64,000 nucleotides of DNA from Flavihumibacter solisilvae (GTDB lineage: Bacteria > Bacteroidota > Bacteroidia > Chitinophagales > Chitinophagaceae), in the NCBI RefSeq assembly GCF_000814475.1, contig NZ_JSVC01000005.1, positions 186,001 through 250,000 on the forward strand, in the 5' to 3' direction. The stretch's first letter is position 1, and each line of letters opens with the position of its first letter. The notes under the pieces are model-generated. The model was not told the origin of the DNA. It searched no databases and worked only from the letters and a program-made list of their open reading frames with translations. Of this stretch, positions 32,445-60,674 are shown one piece after another. The position numbers and the translations under genes were made by a program.

Positions 32445-34889
32445 TTAATTGAGCGTTGCTCTTAGTATATCTGCGAATACGCCTGAGGCCGTAACATCGG
32501 CTCCTGCCCCTGCGCCCTTGATCACGAGCGGTTGCAATGGGTAACGATCTGTCTTGAACAGGACAATGTTATCCTTGCCATACAGGTGATACAGGTCATG
32601 GCCGGGTGCGATCTGCTGTAGTCCTACAGATGCTTTTCCTTCATTGTATGTAGCAACGAATTTCAATTTGCACCCGTTGGCAGCAGCGGCATCAAAGATG
32701 GATCTGAAATGTGCTTCCTGTTTCAGCATTTCGTTATAGAAATCATCAACTGAACCATTCATGCAGGAAGCAGGCAGGAAGCTGTTGTTGCTGATGCTTT
32801 CCATTTCCAGGTGCTCACCTGTTTCGCGGGCAAGGATCATGATTTTGCGCATTACATCCACACCGCTCAGGTCAAGGCGCGGGTCGGGCTCAGTGTATCC
32901 TTCATCCTGTGCCTGGCGAACCACTTCTGCAAACGGACGTGATCCGTCATAATTATTGAAAACAAAATTCAGAGTGCCACTCAGTACAGCTTCGATGCTA
33001 TGGATGCGATCACCGCTTTTCAGCAAATCGTTTAACGTGCCGATAACTGGCAAACCTGCACCCACATTTGTTTCAAAGAGGAATGAAGTATTGAACTCGT
33101 GCGACTTGTTTTTCAACTCGCGATAATAGCTGTATGGCGAAGAGCAGGCGATTTTGTTACAGGCTACCACAGCTATACTTTTCTCGAGCAGCTTTGGATA
33201 CGCGCGAGCCACTTCTTCGCTTGCAGTGACATCAACAAATACAGTGTTGCGCAGGTTTCGCTGGATAATATCATCAGTAAACGAAGTTATATTGCCTTCC
33301 ACGCCATGGTCCATTGCAGCCTTCCAGCTAAGCAGGTCAATGCCCTCTTCGTTGATGAGGTAACGTTTGCTGTTGGCCAGGCCAACAACCCTGAGTTGAA
33401 GCCTCATATGCTGCAGAAGAAATTGTTGCTGCTGCGCAAGCTGCTGCAGCAATCTTCCACCAACATTGCCCACGCCAGTTATAAAAAGGTTGATTTGTTT
33501 GTATGTCTTCTCAAAGAACTCTTCGTGTAGCAGGTTAATGGCTTTGCGCACATCGCGGGTTGCGATCACTGCGGAGATATTCCGCTCAGAAGAGCCCTGC
33601 GCAATGGCACGTACGTTTACTCCATTACGACCAAGTGATCCGAACATCTTGCCACTGATCCCGGGGTGACTTTTCATCTGCTCGCCGACAAGTGCAACTA
33701 TAGAAAGATCTTTTTCCACGATCAGCGGTTCTACTTTCCTCAGGCTTATCTCAGGTGCAAAAGCAGCGTCTACCGCCATCTTTGCCTTGTCAGCTGCAGT
33801 TGCGTCCACGCCAACACAGATGGAATGTTCTGATGATCCCTGGGTGATAAGGATCACATTGATCTGGTGTGCGGCAAGTGCTTCGAAAAGGCGTCTTGAA
33901 AATCCTGGTACTCCCACCATTCCACTACCTTCAAGACTCAGCAGGGCGAGGTTACTTATGCTGGAAATCCCCCTCACGGGGTTCCCGTTGCGATAGCTTT
34001 CATTCTGGATAACGGTACCGGCATCTCCAGGTGCAAACGTGTTTTTGATCCAGACCGGGATATGCAGGTTCATCACGGGTTGAATGGTCGGCGGATAGAT
34101 CACTTTCGCGCCGAAATGAGAAAGCTCCATAGCTTCCTGGTAGGAGATTGCAGGTATTACCCTGGCATTAAGCACCCAGCGTGGATCAGCCGTCATCATG
34201 CCACTGACATCAGTCCAGATCTCGAGACTGGACGCTTTCACCGCAGCTGCGGCAATTGCTGCAGTATAATCAGACCCGCCCCGGCCGAGCGTAGTCGTAA
34301 TCCCTTCCGTATCGGATGCAATAAAGCCAGGCATGACAACCAGCGGTGTTGACAGCGACTGCAGCTCAAGGCTGAACTGCTCGTTGGTGAGGGCAAAGTC
34401 TACAGTTGCATTACCGAATTCACCATTGGTACGAATCAGTTTTCGACTATCCCACCACGTTGCCGGAACGCTTTTGGCCTGGAATGCAGCCGTTATGACG
34501 AGGGACGAGATAAGTTCCCCATAGCTCACTAGCTTGTCCTTTGTCCTGGCAGTAGTTTCCCCAAGCAGGAAAATTCCATTACACAGGTCTTCCACTTCAT
34601 TACAGAGCTTTTTAACCGCACTAAGCATGCTGCTTTGCTGCTGAACCGGGATGAGTTGCCTCACTGCATCAAGATGACGGGTGGTTATATGCCCGACATG
34701 TTCTTTATATAACTCATTACCTCCTGCTGCCAGGGAGCCGCATTGTAACAGCGCATCGGTTGTGCCCCCAAAAGCGGAAACAACAATTATAACCGGTTCT
34801 TTACTAATCTTTTCCGATACTATATCTATTACTCTGAGTATGGCTTCCGCAGTGCCTACGGAAGTACCGCCGAATTTTAAAACCTGCAT
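32445..34889 (-). CDS. thrA: Bifunctional aspartokinase / homoserine dehydrogenase
   Basis: An 814-residue fusion starting at ATG 34889 (MQVLKFGGTSVG, the aspartokinase first strand). Residues about 1-290 form the kinase, about 300-460 hold two ACT-like regulatory domains, and about 470-814 are the dehydrogenase with the NAD(P) motif ITGVGNVGGRLL. It carries out the first and third steps of the aspartate pathway. The longer frame to 34988 runs through the attenuator hairpin and is rejected as coding. Feedback control by threonine is known for the family. Confidence 0.95.
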   Translation of the reverse strand: MQVLKFGGTSVGTAEAILRVIDIVSEKISKEPVIIVVSAFGGTTDALLQCGSLAAGGNELYKEHVGHITTRHLDAVRQLIPVQQQSSMLSAVKKLCNEVEDLCNGIFLLGETTARTKDKLVSYGELISSLVITAAFQAKSVPATWWDSRKLIRTNGEFGNATVDFALTNEQFSLELQSLSTPLVVMPGFIASDTEGITTTLGRGGSDYTAAIAAAAVKASSLEIWTDVSGMMTADPRWVLNARVIPAISYQEAMELSHFGAKVIYPPTIQPVMNLHIPVWIKNTFAPGDAGTVIQNESYRNGNPVRGISSISNLALLSLEGSGMVGVPGFSRRLFEALAAHQINVILITQGSSEHSICVGVDATAADKAKMAVDAAFAPEISLRKVEPLIVEKDLSIVALVGEQMKSHPGISGKMFGSLGRNGVNVRAIAQGSSERNISAVIATRDVRKAINLLHEEFFEKTYKQINLFITGVGNVGGRLLQQLAQQQQFLLQHMRLQLRVVGLANSKRYLINEEGIDLLSWKAAMDHGVEGNITSFTDDIIQRNLRNTVFVDVTASEEVARAYPKLLEKSIAVVACNKIACSSPYSYYRELKNKSHEFNTSFLFETNVGAGLPVIGTLNDLLKSGDRIHSIEAVLSGTLNFVFNNYDGSRPFAEVVRQAQDEGYTEPDPRLDLSGVDVMRKIMILARETGEHLEMESISNNSFLPASCMNGSVDDFYNEMLKQEAHFRSIFDAAAANGCKLKFVATYNEGKASVGLQQIAPGHDLYHLYGKDNIVLFKTDRYPLQPLVIKGAGAGADVTASGVFADILRATLN

Positions 34890-34978: not shown

Positions 34979-35003
34979 AAAAATACAACCCTTAACGGGT
35001 TGT
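34979..35003 (-). terminator. Attenuator terminator of thrABC
   Basis: On the minus strand ACAACCC (35003-34997) pairs perfectly with GGGTTGT (34991-34985) across the loop GTTAA, followed by A and five T's (34984-34979). The leader peptide stop TAA (34994-34992) lies in the loop. A ribosome stalled on the Thr/Ile codons just upstream would cover the 5' arm and prevent the hairpin. An upstream competing stem is GGTTG / CAACC in GGTTGCCGCAACAACC. Confidence 0.7.
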
Positions 35004-35117
35004 GATAATGGTAATAGTGGTAGTTGAGGTTGTTGCGGCAACCCCAATGGAAGTCTTGTATGTAATGAATTGTACCACTGAAATTTTGGAGGAATGAAAA
35101 TACAAAGCACCCAACAT
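34992..35117 (-). CDS. thrL: thr operon leader peptide (attenuator)
   Basis: A frame of 41 codons from ATG 35117, or 28 codons from GTG 35078. It ends in TTSTTTITIITTR: of these 13 codons eight are Thr and three Ile. This closely resembles the enterobacterial thr leader, which also ends in alternating Thr and Ile codons. The start is uncertain because no clear promoter or ribosome site distinguishes the options. It ends about 100 bases before thrA and overlaps the terminator hairpin. High threonine and isoleucine should allow termination; shortage should allow read-through into thrABC. Homology to thrL is not implied; the symbol marks function. Confidence 0.72.
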   Translation of the reverse strand: MLGALYFHSSKISVVQFITYKTSIGVAATTSTTTITIITTR

Positions 35118-47068: not shown

Positions 47069-48334
47069 TCACACTAAGTATCCAAACAGATTGTCGTCTT
47101 TGTTCAGTTCAGTGTAGTTGATCTGGTATCGTTGCATATTGTCCAGCAATGTGTTATAGTCCTCGCGGCTTTTCAGCTCAATACCGACAAGTGCCGGACC
47201 GGATTCCTTGTTATGCTTCTGCATGTATTCAAATCGGGTGATGTCGTCATTTGGTCCCAATACGTGGTTGACGAATTCCTTCAGTGCACCTGGTCTTTGG
47301 GCGAAACGCACCAGGAAATAATGTTTGAGTCCTTCATATTGCAGGGACCTTTCCTTGATTTCCTGCATACGGTCAATATCATTATTGCTTCCGCTTACAA
47401 TGCAGACAATATTTTTTCCCTTGATCCTGTCGGCATACTGGTCAAGGGCTGCTATGGACAGTGCGCCAGCAGGTTCAACAACAATTGCGTCAGCATTATA
47501 CAGCTCGAGAATGACGGAGCACACTTTGCCTTCCGGCGCCAGAAGCATGTCGTCAAGTACTTCACGACAGATCTGGAAGGTTTTATCACCAACTTTTTTA
47601 ACGGCAGCGCCGTCTACGAATCGTTCAATGTTTTCAAGGGATACAGGAGAGCCGTGTTGTAATGCACGGAGCATGGATGGAGCGCCTTCAGGTTCTACAC
47701 CGATGATGGAAGTCTTAGGCGAATAAGTTTTAAAATACCGGCCGACACCCGCACTCAGTCCACCGCCGCCAACAGGTATAAATACAAAATCAACATCAGG
47801 CTGGTCTTCCAGGATTTCCACACCTACAGTTCCCTGTCCTTCAATAATTCTTTCGTCATCAAAAGGAGGGATGAAGGTCATCAGGTTTTCTTCCGTGTAA
47901 GTTTTTGCGGCCTGCGCGCAATCGTCAAAAGTGTCCCCTACAAGCCTCACTTCAATCCAGTCTTCACCAAACATCCGGGTTTGTGTGACTTTCTGGTTAG
48001 GGGTTATTATTGGCATGAAAACGACTCCTTTGACTTTGAGCCTGTTGCAACTGAATGCAAATCCCTGGGCATGGTTACCGGCACTGGCACACACCACGCC
48101 GTTCTGCAGCTGGTCTGCAGGCAGACTGCTCATCATATTGTAGGCCCCCCGAAGCTTATAGCTTCGCACAACCTGCAGGTCTTCACGCTTGAGATACACA
48201 TTGCACTGGTACCTGCGGGACAGGTTCTGGTTATAGGTGAGCGCAGTGCGGTTCACGACCTTTTTGAGGCGGAAAGCAGCTTTGTGAAAATCGAGCGCAA
48301 AAGATGATGATAAAGGTGTTGCTGGTGTCGTCAT
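47069..48334 (-). CDS. ilvA: Threonine ammonia-lyase (biosynthetic)
   Basis: A 421-residue PLP enzyme forming 2-oxobutanoate for isoleucine. The PLP lysine is in VRSYKLRGAYNM and the phosphate loop region is VGGGGLSAGVG. A single C-terminal ACT-like domain (from about residue 330, YFLVRFAQRPGALKEF) gives the short form with one regulatory domain. It is the last gene of ilvE-D-B-N-C-A, about 90 bases after ilvC. It joins the threonine made by thrABC to the BCAA pathway. Confidence 0.95.
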   Translation of the reverse strand: MTTPATPLSSSFALDFHKAAFRLKKVVNRTALTYNQNLSRRYQCNVYLKREDLQVVRSYKLRGAYNMMSSLPADQLQNGVVCASAGNHAQGFAFSCNRLKVKGVVFMPIITPNQKVTQTRMFGEDWIEVRLVGDTFDDCAQAAKTYTEENLMTFIPPFDDERIIEGQGTVGVEILEDQPDVDFVFIPVGGGGLSAGVGRYFKTYSPKTSIIGVEPEGAPSMLRALQHGSPVSLENIERFVDGAAVKKVGDKTFQICREVLDDMLLAPEGKVCSVILELYNADAIVVEPAGALSIAALDQYADRIKGKNIVCIVSGSNNDIDRMQEIKERSLQYEGLKHYFLVRFAQRPGALKEFVNHVLGPNDDITRFEYMQKHNKESGPALVGIELKSREDYNTLLDNMQRYQINYTELNKDDNLFGYLV

Positions 48335-48423: not shown

Positions 48424-49491
48424 TTAAGCGGTAACTGCCGGCTCTTTCTGGTTTTCAGGACGGAGGCTGCGAACCGTCTTTCCTGCCTGCCACATTTCGC
48501 TTTCCCTGAGTTCTTTCAGTTCAGCTTCGAGTTTCTCCCGGTAATCAGCCTGGCTGTTGGAGTCAATGCTGCGCTGGGATTCCTTTCCTGTTGCAACACT
48601 TTCATAAAGCTCTTTGAAAACCGGTGCAGTTGCATCACGGAATTTTTTCCACCAGTCAAGTGCGCCGCGTTGTGCAGTTGTGGAGCAGTTAGCGTACATC
48701 CAGTCCATTCCATTTTCAGCTACCAGTGGCATCAGAGATTGTGTCAGTTCTTCAACAGTCTCGTTGAATGCTTCACTTGGAGTATGGCCTTTGTCGCGCA
48801 GCACCTGGTACTGTGCGGCAAAAATGCCCTGGATAGCGCCCATGAGCGTACCCCTTTCACCTGTAAGATCTGAATACACTTCTTTTTTGAAATCAGTTTC
48901 AAACAGGTATCCGCTTCCTACGGCGATACCAAGCGCAACAACCCTTTCACGTGCTTTACCAGTGGCATCCTGGAAGATGGCAAAAGAACTGTTCAGTCCA
49001 CGTCCCTGCAGGAACATGCGACGGAGAGATGTACCAGAACCTTTAGGAGCTACAAGGAAAACGTCAACATCCTTGGGTGGAATGATTCCGGTTTGCTCAT
49101 TGAATGTAATACCGAAACCATGAGAAAAATAAAGTGCCTTACCAGGAGTAAGATATTTTTGAACGGTTGGCCACAACTGGATCTGTGCAGCATCGCTGAG
49201 GAGATAGCAGATGATTGTACCTTTAGACAATGCCTCTTCGATATCGAACAGGGTTTTACCGGGAACAAATCCATCAGCAACTGCCTTGTCCCAGCTTTTT
49301 GAATTCTTACGCTGACCAACAATTACGTTGATGCCATTGTCACGCTGGTTGAGTGCCTGACCAGGACCCTGAACACCGTAGCCGATTACCGCTACTGTTT
49401 CATTTTGCAGGACTTCCTGCGCTTTGGCGAGTGGGAACTCTTCGCGAGTAACTACATTTTCTTCCACTCCGCCGAAATTTAGTTTAGCCAT
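48424..49491 (-). CDS. ilvC: Ketol-acid reductoisomerase
   Basis: A 355-residue class I enzyme, isomerising and reducing acetolactate and acetohydroxybutyrate. The dinucleotide motif GYGVQGPGQALN and the loop GQRKNSKSW, whose Arg and Ser residues fit NADPH preference, are visible. Metal-binding acidic residues lie in DLTGERGTLMGA. The gene follows ilvN by 59 bases and shares the ilv operon. Confidence 0.96.
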   Translation of the reverse strand: MAKLNFGGVEENVVTREEFPLAKAQEVLQNETVAVIGYGVQGPGQALNQRDNGINVIVGQRKNSKSWDKAVADGFVPGKTLFDIEEALSKGTIICYLLSDAAQIQLWPTVQKYLTPGKALYFSHGFGITFNEQTGIIPPKDVDVFLVAPKGSGTSLRRMFLQGRGLNSSFAIFQDATGKARERVVALGIAVGSGYLFETDFKKEVYSDLTGERGTLMGAIQGIFAAQYQVLRDKGHTPSEAFNETVEELTQSLMPLVAENGMDWMYANCSTTAQRGALDWWKKFRDATAPVFKELYESVATGKESQRSIDSNSQADYREKLEAELKELRESEMWQAGKTVRSLRPENQKEPAVTA

Positions 49492-49550: not shown

Positions 49551-50141
49551 TCACATTGAAAAAACTTCATCCTGTTTGTCTAAGTATTCATTTTCCACCA
49601 CATGCTCAGACGGTTCCTGCAGTTCAAACTCCCGCAGTTTTTCATGGAACCCGCGACTCGCCTTGATGATAGCCACCCTGGCGCTTCTTACAAACTCGAT
49701 AAGTCCGTAGGGCTCCAATACGTTGATGAGCCGGTCAGTCTCTTCGCGATGACCCGTGGTTTCGAATACCGTGTAATCCTTTCGGATCACTACTGCTCTT
49801 GCGCCAAATTCGCGCAGCAGCCTTTCCACTTTTACCTTTTCTGCAATTTCATCAGTAGACACTTTATATAGTGCCAGTTCCTGCCATACAATTTCTTCGT
49901 TGTTATTGTAGTAGGCTTTAAGAACCTCAACCTGTTTCTCGATCTGGCGAACCAGTTTCTTTACCACTTCCTCCATTTCATGGATTACAATCGTAAAACG
50001 GTGAATGCCTTCCACTTCACTTGGAGATGTATTCAGGCTTTCTACATTGATCTTTCTGCGGGAAAATATGATAGCGATCCGGTTGAGCAGGCCGATCTGG
50101 TTTTCTGTATATACTGTTATGGTAAATTCTTGCTTGGACAT
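49551..50141 (-). CDS. ilvN: Acetolactate synthase small (regulatory) subunit
   Basis: A 196-residue protein with an N-terminal ACT domain (FTITVYTENQIGLLNRIAIIFSRRKINVESL) and a C-terminal ALS_ss-type domain. It binds valine or related effectors and activates the large subunit. It begins 17 bases after the ilvB stop. The symbol ilvH would be equally valid; the two names are not separable here. Confidence 0.93.
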   Translation of the reverse strand: MSKQEFTITVYTENQIGLLNRIAIIFSRRKINVESLNTSPSEVEGIHRFTIVIHEMEEVVKKLVRQIEKQVEVLKAYYNNNEEIVWQELALYKVSTDEIAEKVKVERLLREFGARAVVIRKDYTVFETTGHREETDRLINVLEPYGLIEFVRSARVAIIKASRGFHEKLREFELQEPSEHVVENEYLDKQDEVFSM

Positions 50142-50158: not shown

Positions 50159-51898
50159 TCATTTAAGTCTGATTTCCGCAACACTGCATCCCTGTGGTAC
50201 CATTGGAAAGACATTGTTTTCTTTTCCGACCATTACCTCAAGAAGATATGCGCCCTTATGACTTATCATTGTGGAAACAGCTTCTTTCAGGTCTTTCCTG
50301 TCATTTATTGATTGTCCTGCAATGCCATAGCCTTTAGCCACCTGCACGAAATCGGGACTTGCAATATCCACGAATGAATACCTTTTTTCATGGAACAGCT
50401 GCTGCCACTGGCGAACCATTCCCAAAAACTGGTTATTCAGGATCAGGATCTTAACATCCACATTGCTTTGCATTATAGTTCCCAGTTCCTGTAAGGTCAT
50501 CTGGAATCCTCCGTCACCGATTACCGCAACTACAGTCCTGGCAGGGTCTCCATACTTCGCACCAATTGCAGCGGGCAATGCAAATCCCATTGTTCCCAAT
50601 CCGCCTGAGGTGACATTGCTTTTGGATTGCGTGAATTTTGCATAGCGGCAGGCCACCATCTGGTGCTGACCCACGTCAGTAACAATGATCGCATCACCGT
50701 TAGTCAGCTCATTCACAGTTTTGATCACTTCGCCCATGGTCAGGATATCAGAAGTTGGATTAAGTTCCGGTTCTATGCATGTAATCTTTTCTTCGTTCTC
50801 GTAGTCGCGGAACCGCTGCAACCATTGCGGATAACATTTCTGTTCGATCAGTTCTGTCAGAAGCGGGAGTGTTTCCTTGCAATCGCCCCATACCGGAACT
50901 GTGGTCTTCACATTCTTGTCGATCTCAGCGGGGTCGATATCGAGATGAATTACTTTAGCCTGTTTTGCATATTTATCCAGTCGTCCTGTAACCCTGTCAT
51001 CGAAGCGCATACCCACAGCGATCAGTACATCACATTCATTGGTAAGCACATTCGGTCCGTAGTTGCCGTGCATACCCAGCATTCCTACTGCCAACGGGTG
51101 ATCAGTAGGGAGCGCACTCATGCCCAAGATGGTCCAGGCTGTCGGGATCCCCGCCTTTTCGATGAACCGCTTGAATTCCATTTCAGCTTTTCCAAGAATA
51201 ACACCCTGGCCAAATATTACGAAAGGCTGTTTGGCCTCATTGATGAGTTGTGCTGCCTGCTTAATATAATCCTGCCTTACTACCGGTTTCGGGCGATAAC
51301 TCCTGATATGTGTACAGGCTTGGTATCCCTCATATTCGAACTGCTGCAATTGCGCGTTCTTGGTGATGTCTATGAGTACAGGGCCTGGTCTTCCGCTACG
51401 GGCAATGTAAAATGCCTTTGCCAGTACTGATGGAATTTCAGTGGCGTCCGTAACCTGGTAGTTCCACTTCGTAACGGGCGTCGTGATGTTTATCACGTCT
51501 GTTTCCTGGAACGCATCGGTTCCAAGGAGGTGCGCAAACACCTGGCCGGTGATTGCTACGACAGGAGTGGAGTCGATCATGGCATCGGCGAGGCCGGTAA
51601 CAAGATTGGTCGCACCCGGACCGCTAGTAGCGAATACCACACCGGTTTCACCCGATGTGCGGGCAAATCCTTGTGCCGCATGAATGCCGCCCTGTTCGTG
51701 ACGAACCAGGATGTGATCGAGCTTTTCACGGTAATCATACAGTGCATCATAAATTGGCATGATGGCACCACCGGGATACCCGAAAATTGTTTTGACACCT
51801 TCAGCGATCAGCGCTTCCAGAACAGCCTGCGAGCCGCTGATGGTGTTAGTCTTCGTCGGTAACACAGCCTTCTGCGGCTGATTTAACGTGCTTTGCAT
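50159..51898 (-). CDS. ilvB: Acetolactate synthase large (catalytic) subunit
   Basis: A 579-residue ThDP enzyme. The catalytic Glu is in [15 protein letters not shown], and the ThDP/Mg motif is [21 protein letters not shown]. It condenses pyruvate with pyruvate or 2-oxobutanoate. The start used, ATG 51898, lies within ilvD and gives a 53-base overlap; an in-frame GTG at 51865 would still overlap by 20 bases. No later Met is available before the conserved [11 protein letters not shown], so overlap is real either way. Confidence 0.95.
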
Positions 51899-53522
51899 AT
51901 TTATAAAGAATTCCTTTGTTAACTTTCAATGATGGTTTTTTCCACTGTGACTTTCTCTGGCTGATCACGTCTGTCGCAACTTTGAGGTTGATCCGGTTGC
52001 TCACTGCATCAATCTCGATGATATCATCATCTTCAACCAATGCTATCAGTCCTCCTTCAAAGGCTTCCGGCGTGATGTGTCCGACGACGAAGCCATGTGT
52101 GCCGCCACTAAACCTTCCATCAGTGATCAGGGCAACAGATTTTCCAAGTCCTGCACCGATGATGGCAGCGGTTGGTTTCAGCATTTCAGGCATTCCTGGC
52201 GCTCCTTTCGGTCCTACCTGGCGGATTACCACAACATCGCCTTTTTTCACCCTGCCGGTTTCAATTCCTTTGATCAGCTCCTGCTCTCCATCGAATACCC
52301 TCGCAGGTCCTTCGAATCTTTCTCCTTCTTTACCGCTGATCTTTGCTACACTTCCACCTTCTGCGAGGTTACCATACAGGATCTGCAGATGGCCCGTTGC
52401 CTTAAGCGGATTTTCAAGCGGGTAGATAATTTTCTGCGTATCGAAATCAAGGTCTTTTACAGTTTCAAGATTTTCAGCCAGCGTCATTCCTGTTACGGTA
52501 AGGCAATTACCATGCAATAAACCTTTTTTCAGCAGGTACTTCATTACTGCCGGTACACCACCGTGTTCATGCAGGTCCTGCATAAGGTATTTACCACTGG
52601 GTTTGAAATCAGCAAGTACAGGAACCTTGTCGCTGCATGCCTGTACATCATCCTGGGTCAGGGAAACACCCACACTTTTTGCCATTGCGATCAGGTGTAG
52701 TACGGCATTGGTTGATCCACCAAGCACCATGATAACTGTCAGCGCATTTTCAAATGCCTCCCTTGTCATGATGTCGCCAGGTTTAATGTCTTTCTCCATC
52801 AGCAGGCGGATCGCTTTACCGGCAGCCCTGCACTCGTCTTGTTTCTCACTGCTGAGCGCAGGATTGGAAGATGAGTAGGGCAGGCTCATACCAAGGGCTT
52901 CAATTGCAGACGCCATCGTATTCGCAGTATACATTCCACCGCAAGCGCCCGCACCCGGGCATGAATGCTGAACAATTCCTTTAAAATCAGCCTCACTCAG
53001 TTGTCCCGCAATTTTTTGTCCCAGTGCTTCAAATGCCGAAACAATATTCAGGTCCTGTCCCTTGTAATGCCCTGGTGCAATCGTACCGCCATAAACCATT
53101 ATTGCCGGACGGTTGAGACGGCCCATGGCAATAATTGACCCGGGCATATTCTTATCGCAGCCTGGCACAGCAATTACAGCGTCGTAATACTGGGCGCCGC
53201 AAACAGCTTCGATCGAGTCAGCGATGATATCGCGACTCACAAGAGAATATCTCATGCCATCGGTACCGTTACTGATCCCATCACTTACACCGATGGTATT
53301 AAAGATCAGCCCGACCAGGTCTTCCTTCCACACACTTTCCTTGATCACTTTTGCAAGATCGTTCAGGTGCATGTTGCAGGTGTTGCCATCATAGCCCATG
53401 CTCACTACTCCGACCTGCGCCTTTGCCAGGTCTTCATCAGTAAGGCCGATGCCGTAAAGCATCGCCTGTGCAGCGGGCTGTGTGGGGTCCTGGGTGATCG
53501 TCCTGGAATATTTGTTCAGCAT
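51846..53522 (-). CDS. ilvD: Dihydroxy-acid dehydratase
   Basis: A 558-residue Fe-S enzyme dehydrating dihydroxy acids to the 2-oxo acids of valine and isoleucine. Cluster cysteines are in [15 protein letters not shown] and [16 protein letters not shown]. The motif [24 protein letters not shown] is complete. It follows ilvE by 35 bases and its last 53 bases overlap ilvB. Confidence 0.96.
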
Positions 53523-53557: not shown

Positions 53558-54454
53558 TCAGAGTGTCGATGGTTCAGTGATTTTTTCTGTCACCAGTTCC
53601 TTGTAAGCCAATTGTATTTTGCGCGATATCGTATCATTCCATTCCTTTACCATGGGAACATCATCAAAGCTTTGCCATCCCACTACTTCTGCAGCTGTTC
53701 CACAGAAGAAGGCAGCGTCTGCCTGCTTAAGGTCTTCTGTAGTGAAAAGTTTTTCTTCCACTTCTATGCCGGATTCTCCGCAGAGCTCAAAGATTGTAGC
53801 GCGCGTGATACCGGGCAGGATATTTCCGGTAGGCGGTGTATATAGTTTCCCGTTTTTTTCAAAGAAGATATTTGCACCTGGTCCCTCAGCAACAAAGCCG
53901 TTGATATCATTCAGCAGTGCTTCATCGTAACCTTTTGCCTTTGCTTCCTGGCTAGCCAGTATCGAGTTTACATAATGTCCCGAAGCTTTAGCTTCAATCC
54001 TGAATCCCCGCGGATTTGGCCGCTGGAAGGAAGAGCCCATTACACGTAACAGCTTGTCACCCAGGAAAGGCTGCATTTCCCACACCTGGATAGTGATGTA
54101 CGATTCTGTGTTCACATTGAAGCTCATGTTTGCGGGAGCATAGACCAGGGGACGGATATAGGCATCCTGCAGATTATTGCGGGACAAAGTTTCGTATGTG
54201 GCATCGATCAGTTGATTTACAGACCAGTGATAAGGCATGTTGACCAAAGCAGCCGAACGCTCCAGGCGCTCATAGTGCTCTGTTGCCTTAAAGATCCTGG
54301 TTTCCCCTGACGCTGTCCGGTAAGAACGGATCCCTTCGAACACTGAGTAACCATAGTGAAGACTCTGGCTATACAGATCCATAGTTAATTCAGCGGCTTT
54401 CAGAAAGCTGCCATTATGGTAAAGGATAGTGTTGTTATCGTAATAAGTTGCCAT
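53558..54454 (-). CDS. ilvE: Branched-chain amino acid aminotransferase
   Basis: A 298-residue fold-type IV PLP enzyme. K156 in RIEAKASGHYVNS is the PLP lysine, and the family stretches EGIRSYRT, EALLNDINGFVAEGPGANIF and LPGITR are present. It performs the final amination for Ile, Val and Leu using glutamate, which gltBD can supply. It is the first structural gene after the ilv attenuator, whose terminator ends 35 bases upstream. Confidence 0.95.
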   Translation of the reverse strand: MATYYDNNTILYHNGSFLKAAELTMDLYSQSLHYGYSVFEGIRSYRTASGETRIFKATEHYERLERSAALVNMPYHWSVNQLIDATYETLSRNNLQDAYIRPLVYAPANMSFNVNTESYITIQVWEMQPFLGDKLLRVMGSSFQRPNPRGFRIEAKASGHYVNSILASQEAKAKGYDEALLNDINGFVAEGPGANIFFEKNGKLYTPPTGNILPGITRATIFELCGESGIEVEEKLFTTEDLKQADAAFFCGTAAEVVGWQSFDDVPMVKEWNDTISRKIQLAYKELVTEKITEPSTL

Positions 54455-54488: not shown

Positions 54489-54526
54489 AAAAAAAAACGG
54501 TCCGCCTTTTTGGAGGCGGACCGTTT
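54489..54526 (-). terminator. Attenuator terminator of the ilvEDBNCA operon
   Basis: On the minus strand AAACGGTCCGCC (54526-54515) pairs with GGCGGACCGTTT (54506-54495), followed by a U tract of nine (54497-54489). An alternative antiterminator is visible: GGAGGTGG inside the leader peptide (54566-54559) can pair with CCGCCTCC (54519-54512), which includes the 5' arm of the terminator, using eight pairs with one G-U. The two structures exclude each other, as in classical leader-peptide attenuation. Confidence 0.88.
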
Positions 54527-54545
54527 GTATGTTGTTTTAATTCTG

Positions 54546-54644
54546 TTATATACAAGTACCACCTCCCAATGCAGGAATAATAATCACCACCACAATAATG
54601 ACTGCGATAAGAGAAGGGATGGTATGTAGATTATTCAACTGCAT
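54546..54644 (-). CDS. ilvL: ilv operon leader peptide (attenuator)
   Basis: A 32-codon ORF from ATG 54644 to TAA 54548-54546. Sixteen of its 32 residues are branched-chain: eight Ile, four Val, four Leu. The core AVIIVVVIIIPALGGG closely resembles the enterobacterial ilv leader in spirit and partly in letter (VVVIIIP). The Gly codons after the core form the antiterminator strand. Ribosome stalling on the Ile/Val run would expose that strand and open ilvEDBNCA; translation to the stop would cover it and permit termination. The symbol denotes function, not proven homology. It lies 71 bases after leuB. Confidence 0.88.
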   Translation of the reverse strand: MQLNNLHTIPSLIAVIIVVVIIIPALGGGTCI

Positions 54645-54665
54645 GACACGAGGTCGTATGTTTTA

Positions 54666-54673
54666 CGAATATA
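54666..54673 (-). promoter_or_regulatory. Candidate -7 box of the ilv leader
   Basis: The minus strand reads TATATTCG, one mismatch from TAnnTTTG, 21 bases before the leader ATG. The leuA promoter candidate has the similar box TATTTTCG. No TTTG at -33 is seen. Confidence 0.35.
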
Positions 54674-54705
54674 AAACCGCCGTGCCGAATAAAAAAAGAA
54701 CTGAT

Positions 54706-54726
54706 CGATTATTTTTTAAATAATCG
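54706..54726 (-). terminator. Weak AT-rich hairpin at the leuB stop
   Basis: CGATTATT and AATAATCG form an eight-pair stem with a five-base loop that includes the leuB stop codon. On the minus strand a seven-T run follows nine bases later. It may end the leu transcript weakly, so some leu transcripts could run into the ilv leader. Confidence 0.35.
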
Positions 54727-55831
54727 TGGATTTTCTCAACTGGATATTTTCCGGGTGCAATTCGCTGGGGATCTTGTCCTGTACAAGATCACTGATCAAC
54801 TCACCTATTGTAGAGGTGAAATAAAAATTAACAGGATCTATATCTTTTGTAACAAAACTGTTATCGAGTGTCCATTGCACAGCACTGCGCACTTTAGCTG
54901 CTTCAGTGTGTAATCCGAAATGATCAAGCAACATTGCGGCAGACAATATGGATCCCAGCGGATTGGCAATGTCTTTACCTGCTGCCTGCGGGTATGAACC
55001 ATGGATAGGCTCAAACAATGCCCCGCCGTTTCCTACAGATGCTGAAGGCAGCAATCCCAGGGATCCCGTAATCACGCTTGCTTCATCGCTGAGGATATCG
55101 CCAAACATATTTTCGGTGAGGATCACATCAAACTGTTTCGGATTCACAATCAGCTGCATAGCGGCATTGTCAACAAACAGAAAATCAACCGTTACATCCG
55201 GGTATTGTGATGCCATTGCCTGCACCACTTTCCTCCATAGCCTGGAAGTTTCAAGTACATTGGCTTTGTCAACCAGCGTCAGTTTTTTCCTTCTCTTTTG
55301 CGCTGCTTTGAACGCGAGGTGCGCGATTCTTTCTATTTCTGCTGCAGAATAAGAGCATTCGTCGGAAGCTGTGGTGCCGTCATCCGACAGGTTCTTGGCA
55401 CCGAAATAGATACCTCCTGTGAGTTCACGGTAAATAACGCAATCCACACCCTCCAGGTTTTTTGCCTTCAGGGGAGACAGGTGTTGCAATGTCGGAAATG
55501 TATTTACCGGACGTATGTTGGCAAACAGCTGCAGCGATTTGCGGAGCTTTAACAGGCCCTGCTCCGGGCGTACTTTGGCCGAAGGGTCATTGTCATATTT
55601 GGGATGCCCGATGGCACCAAACAATACTGCGTCACTATTAAGGCACAGTTCTATTGTTTCGTCGGGTAATGGATTGCCGGTCTTGTCAATGGCATCTGCA
55701 CCCATCAGGCCGAAAGAGTAATGAAATTTATGATTATAATGTTTAGCAACAGCATCAAGCACTTTAATCGACTGTTGTGTTACTTCCGGTCCGATTCCAT
55801 CACCTAATATGACTGCAATTTTCTTTTCCAT
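54716..55831 (-). CDS. leuB: 3-isopropylmalate dehydrogenase
   Basis: A 371-residue NAD-dependent beta-decarboxylating dehydrogenase. The nucleotide and metal motifs GDGIGPEV, DKANVLETSRLW, NMFGDILSDEASVITGSLGLLPSASVG and EPIHGSYPQAAGKDIANP are all present. It makes 2-oxoisocaproate, the keto acid of leucine. It starts 9 bases after the stop of the ABC ATPase gene that separates it from leuD. Confidence 0.96.
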   Translation of the reverse strand: MEKKIAVILGDGIGPEVTQQSIKVLDAVAKHYNHKFHYSFGLMGADAIDKTGNPLPDETIELCLNSDAVLFGAIGHPKYDNDPSAKVRPEQGLLKLRKSLQLFANIRPVNTFPTLQHLSPLKAKNLEGVDCVIYRELTGGIYFGAKNLSDDGTTASDECSYSAAEIERIAHLAFKAAQKRRKKLTLVDKANVLETSRLWRKVVQAMASQYPDVTVDFLFVDNAAMQLIVNPKQFDVILTENMFGDILSDEASVITGSLGLLPSASVGNGGALFEPIHGSYPQAAGKDIANPLGSILSAAMLLDHFGLHTEAAKVRSAVQWTLDNSFVTKDIDPVNFYFTSTIGELISDLVQDKIPSELHPENIQLRKSTII

Positions 55832-55840
55832 GGTTGGGAT

Positions 55841-57247
55841 TTATGCTGATAATAATTTTTCTGAAAAATGCTCACCTATGAATGCAGTACCATTTTCGAG
55901 TACCAGTTTTTTACTGATGCACTCCGGCAGTTCAGTTTCATAATGTGTTACATAAATAAGTGTTCGCTCCGGATCATCGCAAAGGCGGTCAACAAGATTT
56001 ATGAAAGCAGTCCGCTGGTGATCATCGAGCCCCTGGCAGGGTTCGTCGAGAATCAGCAGGTGTGGGTTTTTAATCATAGCCCGTGCGAGTAATGCCAGGC
56101 GCTGATGACCTGTCGAAAGTAAGGAAAGCAGCCTGTGCTGAACTGCTGTGAGGCCAAACAGTTCCAGCCATTTCACTACTTCTGCGTGCTGTGACTCATT
56201 CAACTGGCGAAAAAGCCCGATCGTGTCGAACAATCCGGATGCAACCGCCTGGTAACAGGTGATACTGCTGTCAAAATACCATTGAAGTTCAGGTGATACA
56301 TAACCGATATTTTTCTTGATGTCCCAGATGCTTTCGCCGGTTCCCCTTTTCCTGTCGAAGAGTAAAATGTCGTTACAGTATGCTTTTGGATTATCGCCCG
56401 TGATGAGGCTGATCAATGTTGATTTTCCGGTACCATTTGCCCCCTTGAGCCACCATCTTTCTCCGTTCCTGATGGTCCAGTTCACATTGTTCAGAAGTCT
56501 TTTGTCACCATAGCTGATCTCATTTTGATGCATCTCCACTACGATCTGAAAATGGTGGGGGAGTTGTGCGATATCGATCCGGGGACTTTCAAATTTTCTT
56601 TCGGATGTGTGAACAGGGAGTCCCGCTGTGTTTCCAAAGTATGCCTGTTTGCCACTGTCCAGCAGCAGCGCGTAATCAATAAACAGCGGGCATTCTTCCG
56701 GATCACAGATGATAATAAACCTGCATCCTGTACAGGACTTTTCTTCCATGATCTTTCGCAACAGGGCACGGCTGGCTGTATCCATACCGGTAAAAGGTTC
56801 ATCTAGGATGTATACCGGTGCATTTTGCTGAAAAGCCTTGATGAGCTGGAATCTTTTATGTTCACCGCTTGACAGGTGAAGAAGGGGAGTGTCCAGCCTT
56901 TCCTGGAGACCAAATACCCTTAGCAATCTCAAAGTTTCCTCTGACAAATGTTCGAGGTCTTCACGCAGGGTTGCAGAATCGTCCGCTTCCATGCTGTTGA
57001 ATCGCTGCTGGTAATAGAACTGGCTGACATGCGACCGGTTCGTAAAATGATAATGCTGATCTACCCGTAATGCGTGAACCGTAAGTCTTGAAGACAAGGC
57101 GTGGGCAAGCGACGTTTTCCCGCTTCCCGAAGAACCGCTGATGAGCAGGTGACTGCCTGCAGGCAATTCAAATGCGATACCATCCAGAATTTTTTTCCCA
57201 CTGAGTTGAAGGGAAACATTATTTACTATGATGGTATCCCGGTTCAT
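55841..57247 (-). CDS. Tandem ABC ATPase (ModF/PhrA-like) inside the leu operon
   Basis: A 468-residue protein of two ABC domains and no membrane segment. Domain 1 has Walker A SGSSGSGKTSL, signature LSSGEHKRF and Walker B VYILDEPFTGMD. Domain 2 has Walker A KGANGTGKSTL, signature LSTGHQRLAL and Walker B LLILDEPCQGLD. The layout resembles ModF/PhrA of Enterobacteria, whose role is unclear, rather than ABC-F factors. Its ATG shares one base with the leuD stop (TGATG at 57249-57245), and leuB follows 9 bases after its stop, so it is fully embedded in the operon. Whether it serves leucine synthesis or is a passenger is unknown. Confidence 0.85.
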   Translation of the reverse strand: MNRDTIIVNNVSLQLSGKKILDGIAFELPAGSHLLISGSSGSGKTSLAHALSSRLTVHALRVDQHYHFTNRSHVSQFYYQQRFNSMEADDSATLREDLEHLSEETLRLLRVFGLQERLDTPLLHLSSGEHKRFQLIKAFQQNAPVYILDEPFTGMDTASRALLRKIMEEKSCTGCRFIIICDPEECPLFIDYALLLDSGKQAYFGNTAGLPVHTSERKFESPRIDIAQLPHHFQIVVEMHQNEISYGDKRLLNNVNWTIRNGERWWLKGANGTGKSTLISLITGDNPKAYCNDILLFDRKRGTGESIWDIKKNIGYVSPELQWYFDSSITCYQAVASGLFDTIGLFRQLNESQHAEVVKWLELFGLTAVQHRLLSLLSTGHQRLALLARAMIKNPHLLILDEPCQGLDDHQRTAFINLVDRLCDDPERTLIYVTHYETELPECISKKLVLENGTAFIGEHFSEKLLSA

Positions 57248-60475: not shown

Positions 60476-60495
60476 TCATGGGATTTATAAAGTAA

Positions 60496-60548
60496 GCAGG
60501 CCCTATATTCCCGATTGCTTGCTATGTTTGTGAAATACAGGGACCTGC
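60496..60548 (-). promoter_or_regulatory. Long leader hairpin upstream of leuA
   Basis: On the minus strand GCAGGTCCCTGTATT (60548-60534) pairs with AATATAGGGCCTGC (60509-60496), giving 14 pairs with one bulged T and one G-U, and a loop of 24 bases. It would sit near the 5' end of the leuA mRNA. The tail TTACTTTAT is a poor U tract, so it looks more like an mRNA control or stability element than a terminator. Confidence 0.55.
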
Positions 60549-60553
60549 GAAAC

Positions 60554-60585
60554 CGAAAATAGCTAGCATATCATGGGCGTTCAAA
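60554..60585 (-). promoter_or_regulatory. Probable leuA promoter
   Basis: On the minus strand TTTG (60585-60582), a 20-base spacer and TATTTTCG (60561-60554, one mismatch to TAnnTTTG). Transcription would start just before the leader hairpin. Confidence 0.5.
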
Positions 60586-60622
60586 TCAAAATGGTTCCTG
60601 AATTACAGTGGTTAAACCCCCT

Positions 60623-60630
60623 TAAATTTG
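60623..60630 (+). promoter_or_regulatory. Candidate -7 box for the gene at 60675
   Basis: TAAATTTG exactly fits TAnnTTTG, 44 bases before the ATG. A matching -33 element is not clear. Confidence 0.4.
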
Positions 60631-60674
60631 CTGAAATGCAGTACTGATAAGGGTTTAATGTTAAGCGAATTACG

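Follow-up and report, generated by a model that had tools for sequence, protein, structure and literature searches.

A predicted leader-peptide attenuator upstream of the ilvEDBNCA operon of Flavihumibacter solisilvae and its counterparts in relatives

The window analyzed here, a 64-kb stretch corresponding to positions 186001-250000 of its contig in the 5.41 Mb genome of Flavihumibacter solisilvae, carries on its minus strand the genes leuC, leuD, an ABC-type ATPase, leuB, ilvE, ilvD, ilvB, ilvN, ilvC and ilvA, in that order, with a gap of 261 nt between leuB and ilvE. The identity of the downstream genes as ilvEDBNCA, proposed in an earlier note on this DNA, was confirmed by NCBIfam matches. 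The gap contains a promoter-like pair of elements, a 32-codon ORF, two antiterminator arms and a terminator with nine T residues (Table 1). The leuB stop codon precedes the -33 element by 14 nt. Within the leu cluster, the ATPase gene of the leuD-leuB interval (55844-57247, minus strand) encodes a two-domain protein.

Table 1 Features of the ilv leader and its neighbors in window coordinates, with serial modules of relatives
Feature	Position	Strand	Basis
Putative promoter: -33 element GTTCTTTT (54701-54694) and -7 element TATATTCG (54673-54666)	54666..54701	-	sequence
Leader peptide ORF, 32 codons and stop	54546..54644	-	conserved in relatives
Segment 2 GGAGGTGG, antiterminator 5' arm, within Gly codons 27-29	54559..54566	-	duplex test, alignment
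Segment 3 CCGCCTCC, antiterminator 3' arm, overlaps terminator 5' arm	54512..54519	-	duplex test, alignment
Intrinsic terminator: stem 54526-54495, T tract 54497-54489	54489..54526	-	sequence, covariation
leuB, directly upstream, same strand	54716..55831	-	TIGR00169
ilvE, branched-chain amino-acid transaminase, first gene of the operon	53558..54454	-	NCBIfam TIGR01122 over cut-off
ilvD	51846..53522	-	TIGR00110
ilvB	50159..51898	-	TIGR00118
ilvN	49551..50141	-	TIGR00119
ilvC	48424..49491	-	TIGR00465
ilvA	47069..48334	-	TIGR02079
Serial modules upstream of ilvE in relatives: L080, L084, L086, L117, L118, L120, L123, L128, L132, L167, L182, L184, L185			

Translation of the ORF gives MQLNNLHTIPSLIAVIIVVVIIIPALGGGTCI, in which 16 of the 32 codons specify Ile, Val or Leu, including the run AVIIVVVIIIP, exactly as the earlier note had read it. 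The branched-chain amino-acid (BCAA) control codons are V15-I23 (VIIVVVIII). Among the window's 1,303 ORFs of 10-80 codons, this leader alone reaches 11 Ile, Leu or Val per 12 codons, the runners-up having 9 and then 8, and it is the sole BCAA-run ORF found in the window with an intrinsic terminator behind it. No Leu attenuator was detected for leuA, either by inspection of the ~200-nt upstream region (60476-60674) for a Leu run and terminator or in a scan of the whole window for the module. The leader ORF is so short that routine annotation may overlook it. Upstream of it, the pair GTTCTTTT and TATATTCG, absent from the earlier note, resembles the Bacteroidota -7/-33 promoter. Of 80 loci, 64 have a TAnnTTYG motif no more than 160 nt ahead of the BCAA core, mostly at ~60-86 nt from it; this count retains near-duplicates and has no shuffle control for the motif. 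By eye, a GTTCTTTG-like -33 element often accompanies it in the same 80 loci, near-duplicates included.

The terminator has a stem of 13 pairs (-23.1 kcal/mol) followed by a T run of 9 bases; the earlier note had counted the same U9 tail but one pair fewer, 12, in the stem. The two antiterminator segments lie at the coordinates originally claimed, and their duplex (-18.6 kcal/mol) is better than all 200 dinucleotide shuffles (p = 0.005). The first base of segment 2 lies 18 nt ahead of the ORF's stop codon. The antiterminator and the terminator are predicted to be mutually exclusive.

We searched for the element in 128 distinct ilvE upstream regions obtained from 141 loci, having dropped L004, which lacked a tblastn match, as well as loci with a short upstream region, a partial ilvE or an identical last 150 nt. 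A strict module was defined as an ORF starting with ATG, with BCAA codons at 7 or more of 10 positions, and a terminator within 450 nt. In this set of kindred sequences, where counts are not independent events, the strict module was found before ilvE at 60 of the 72 loci whose ilvE is at least 60% identical and at 22 of the 30 with 48-60% identity. It was found at none of the 26 loci below 48%, a group made up of paralogues together with distant representatives of the order and phylum. The controls were empty, with 0/128 reverse strands and 0/2,560 dinucleotide shuffles yielding a module. When the misses alone were revisited with relaxed starts and thresholds and a longer region, a setting that has no shuffle control, the near relatives with a module rose from 60 to 66 of 72. 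The remaining six (L028, L035, L057, L068, L075 and L076) were module-free even then. The earlier note had set conservation in homologues as a check beforehand, and joint retention of ORF and terminator in 60/72 (strict) or 66/72 (relaxed) loci bears out its expectation.

A covariance model was built partly from genomes that it later matched, with 32 first-look candidates scored per genome, and on that basis 64 of the 117 family genomes gave one match each at E <= 1e-5; at E <= 0.01 the number was 77/117, the weaker matches being doubtful. Its single match in the F. solisilvae genome is at the ilv leader locus. Thirty covariance-model loci were retrieved, 20 of which lie beside known ilvE places. 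Nine of the other 10 face ilvD-like (dihydroxy-acid dehydratase) genes, eight of them HMM-checked and the ninth (L232) near-identical to L231. At the last locus, L233, the element faces a small protein that matched no family. Judged from these placements, the element follows the operon, whether ilvE or ilvD comes first.

Inspection of a hand-thinned alignment (51 of 71 listed reference sequences) revealed Ile, Val or Leu almost without exception at the nine core codons. Entropies at codon positions 1, 2 and 3 of the core are 0.78, 0.13 and 1.20, so that position 2 is almost invariant and position 3 the most variable. This pattern is that expected of a coding sequence preserved for amino-acid class, and the drift away from Ile and Val that the earlier note had named as a refutation is not what the relatives display. 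Codon choice is also skewed. In 80 loci, near-duplicates kept, Ile is ATT in a fraction of 0.86 of core codons versus 0.38 in ilvE, Val is GTG in 0.57 versus 0.26, and for GTG and GTC combined the Val share is 85% versus 34%.

The stems, for which the earlier note had anticipated covariation, gave a divided answer. Across the 51 relatives, 96.8% of terminator cells are paired and two-sided changes occur at 6 of the 8 pairs tested; the covariation score of 0.284 compares with 0.128 when shuffled, 0/500 shuffles reach it, and no slid register comes near the true one. The antiterminator is likewise paired in 94.8% of cells of the alignment, but its covariation inside the family is weak, with 2/8 pairs two-sided and 26/500 shuffles equal or better, because the pairing hardly varies within the family. 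Across families the pairing recurs with different sequences, segments 2 and 3 changing jointly from GGAGGTGG/CCGCCTCC to GAG..AGG/CCTTTCTC and CATCGGGGCG/CGCCTCGATG. Tested individually against 200 shuffles, the antiterminator duplex reaches p <= 0.05 in 57/60 modules of near relatives and 23/31 of more distant ones, or 80/91 overall, with 11/91 missing that level.

From these patterns of conservation, we consider it very probable that the ilvEDBNCA leader is a ribosome-mediated transcription attenuator sensing charged tRNA-Ile and tRNA-Val. Transcription would start just upstream of the leader ORF, as suggested by the -7 box. When charged Ile- or Val-tRNA is scarce, the translating ribosome would be expected to stall at V15-I23, leaving segment 2 free to pair with segment 3 once the latter is transcribed; this pairing would delay the terminator and allow the polymerase to enter ilvE. 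When the charged tRNAs are ample, the ribosome would reach the stop codon and cover segment 2, and the terminator would form. The spacing is compatible with this scheme: in 57 near-relative modules the median distance is 14 nt from the last BCAA codon to segment 2 and again 14 nt from segment 2 to the stop codon.

We modeled the leader with a ribosome of assumed footprint at defined positions. Constrained folds computed before the terminator 3' arm exists yield the antiterminator when the ribosome is at V15 or I21 and a shortened form of it at I23; when the ribosome occupies the stop codon, it no longer forms. In these models the control codons thus appear to be positioned such that the antiterminator arm is released by a stalled ribosome and blocked by one that has reached the stop. 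For the full-length leader at equilibrium, the terminator forms in all nine modeled ribosome positions. Since the terminator at -23.1 kcal/mol beats the antiterminator at -18.6 kcal/mol and wins at every position, control must be kinetic and exerted during transcription.

How segment 2 is kept from pairing when translation is completed is the point at which this leader may depart from the enterobacterial model. Our preferred account, which we hold to be the likelier one, is that the terminating ribosome itself masks the antiterminator arm, in place of a protector hairpin. Given the 18-nt interval and the footprint of a ribosome, segment 2 of the window plausibly lies under a ribosome resting at the stop codon. 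The strongest competitor keeps the same attenuation but adds a canonical protector (1:2) hairpin, in which an upstream stretch, in the 5' UTR or the ORF, would capture segment 2 once the ribosome has finished or if it is absent. The unconstrained full-leader fold of the window does pair the 5' UTR sequence CGACCTC with GAGGTGG, yet this hairpin is no better than shuffles (p = 0.36, and 0.20-0.21 in a second test). A protector reaches p <= 0.05 in just 6/57 and 4/23 modules, in 9/64 loci if the 5' UTR is added and in 5/64 with the whole leader, which is a slight excess over the ~5% expected by chance. A conserved protector or pause hairpin of the canonical three-hairpin enterobacterial type was therefore not found in the 57 and 23 modules or the 64 loci. 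We regard a protector hairpin as a minority possibility, and favor direct occlusion by the terminating ribosome because the hairpin is unsupported beyond that slight excess. In the folds, the antiterminator also forms with no ribosome present, as long as the 3' arm has not yet been made. If there is no protector, a leader that is not translated would thus be expected to allow read-through, in contrast to the textbook scheme.

It is quite unlikely that the peptide itself acts, by nascent-chain arrest or as a free peptide, rather than the codon supply. The Pro after the Ile run is kept in 42/51 aligned relatives and the first Gly column is Gly in 47/51, and such conservation of Pro and the Gly run, like the VVVIIIP that E. 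coli ilvL shares, would suit an acting peptide. However, the Gly codons are accounted for by the pairing of segment 2, and Ile, Val and Leu follow one another in different orders from family to family, which fits codon sensing better than a single arrest sequence. A riboswitch, T-box or protein-bound leader governing the operon with the ORF as an incidental feature would also present a structured leader followed by a terminator, but it is very improbable, given that Rfam gave 0 matches at the gathering threshold anywhere in the window (leader, riboswitch and T-box families) and that the conserved features are the ORF, the codon class and the spacing to the terminator. Intrinsic terminators between genes are common, but an ordinary leuB terminator preceded by chance by a low-complexity ORF is scarcely credible when shuffles and reverse strands produce no module and the element persists where ilvD replaces ilvE as first gene.

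The attenuator reading of codon sensing and arm occlusion was compared with the ilvL attenuator of the E. coli ilvXGMEDA operon (NC_000913 3950322-3950420), which showed the same layout in the same script, in line with the likeness drawn in the earlier note. Both leaders are 32 residues long and contain VVVIIIP; in both, the antiterminator arm is encoded just past the Ile run and pairs with the 5' arm of the terminator. The T-tailed terminator of ilvL follows 24 nt after the stop codon, and as positive control ilvL passed the antiterminator test with GTGCGGGG. The two leaders differ in the distance from the start of segment 2 to the stop codon, 31 nt in E. coli versus 18 nt in the window, and a BLASTP comparison of the peptides gave E = 11 over 8 residues, the core being of low complexity. 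The earlier note had equated the architecture with that of the enterobacterial ilv attenuator: its ribosome-stalling logic is supported, whereas the full three-hairpin scheme is not, no conserved protector hairpin having been found in the modules and loci tested above. Translation initiation in Bacteroidota also differs from that in E. coli, with little use of Shine-Dalgarno sequences.

The window leader is the single-module form. In several leaders outside Chitinophagaceae, two or three modules occur in series upstream of ilvE. The strict test found two modules at 9 of the 30 loci with 48-60% ilvE identity and none in shuffles. With looser thresholds, which have no shuffle control for module finding, at least two modules occur in 16/61 loci, a figure that includes two doubtful cases, L127 and the first module of L081; at least two significant antiterminators occur in 11 loci of the same 61. 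The distance from a terminator to the next leader start is 8-35 nt at 15 of 16 junctions in the 15 loci inspected. Such junctions are too short for a promoter and a leader; one of them contains a -7-like motif. L117 has three serial modules, two with near-identical peptides. In Flavobacterium sp. SUN046 (L080), the upstream antiterminator does not reach significance by itself (p = 0.10-0.11); in a Weeksellaceae strain (L084) the antiterminators have p = 0.05-0.08 upstream and 0.002-0.005 downstream. We lean, by a modest degree, toward the view that the class this genome belongs to uses two-structure attenuators without a conserved protector, the terminating ribosome covering the arm, and that some lineages stack two or three of them in series. 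If so, the polymerase would have to clear each stacked BCAA-sensing attenuator. The mgtCBR leader of Salmonella, with two leader ORFs, is a precedent for a serial arrangement (PMC3641672), though with other genes and signals, whereas in the relatives one and the same BCAA sensor recurs. No description of serial BCAA modules was found among the literature matches listed.

Leader peptides are also found before other biosynthetic genes of the genome. Upstream of hisG (L147, G000:C11) lies the leader MKQITQKHHHHHLLQSR with a terminator (antiterminator p = 0.015), and a His-run ORF was detected by script in 9/10 hisG loci and by eye, with a GTG start, in the tenth (L149). In front of a trpE-type gene (L204, G000:C11) lie MIKNIQNIQWWWHTNSSGVL and a terminator (antiterminator p = 0.13); leaders with WW or WWW occur in 6 of the 11 chorismate-binding loci examined, a set that leaves L207-L209 outside, and the other five are probably other paralogues. 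For pheA (L212, G000:C7), the leader is MITAKAFGRFYFYFYFFTGRRPAMLCV, again with a terminator (antiterminator p = 0.07), and Phe/Tyr-rich leaders occur at 5/6 loci. Of these His, Trp and Phe leaders of the genome, the antiterminator is significant for His only. The pheA leader alternates Phe and Tyr (RFYFYFYFF), a striking mix for pheA. In the window, an ORF ending in ...VAATTSTTTITIITTR (34992-35117, minus strand) forms a Thr leader upstream of thrA (ATG at 34889). It has a weak hairpin, CAACCC-GTTAA-GGGTTG, around the stop codon, and no strong terminator was found there. The homoserine-dehydrogenase loci numbered 10; six lacked the gene start at first, five of which were re-extended upstream, and the F. 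solisilvae locus was covered by the window. A Thr-rich ORF precedes thrA in 4 of 5 relatives, no start having been found in the fifth. The Thr pathway of this genome thus probably has a leader peptide, but since the thrA hairpin sits over the stop codon, its logic must differ from that of the ilv leader.

Comparative genomics by Vitreschak et al. in 2004 (FEMS Microbiol Lett) reportedly predicted branched-chain and other attenuators, some of them in Bacteroidetes/Chlorobi. According to a 2013 survey, Ile/Val attenuators were at that time not represented in Rfam (PMC3766115). Actinobacterial ilvB leaders likewise place a short ORF with an Ile/Val/Leu run and a terminator before an ilv operon, but there the ORF overlaps the terminator, whereas the window ORF ends before it; codon substitutions in the S. 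coelicolor ilvB leader were reportedly without effect (PMC1262725). Within the phylum, a 2021 transcriptome of Flavobacterium psychrophilum, a member of another family, reports strong indications that operons for amino-acid biosynthesis are preceded by leader-peptide attenuators and singles out conserved 5' elements ahead of pheA and hisG, with "ilv" occurring 0 times in its main text (PMC9723704). A B. thetaiotaomicron map mentions sORFs reminiscent of leader peptides (PMC7366714). The earlier remark that attenuation is little studied in this phylum still stands, although the idea is not wholly new in print (PMC9723704). No description of an ilv leader of Bacteroidota was found among the literature matches listed, in which subscription journals are poorly covered.

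The mechanism is classical and has already been suggested for Bacteroidota in print. What is new is the locus; it comes with an apparent structural simplification, and relatives display a serial arrangement. Our analysis places a predicted amino-acid attenuator of the classical kind before an ilv operon of Bacteroidota, with evidence from covariation and codon conservation. Its simple layout of two structures, and the copies that relatives carry in series, could show which share of the textbook three-hairpin model is indispensable.
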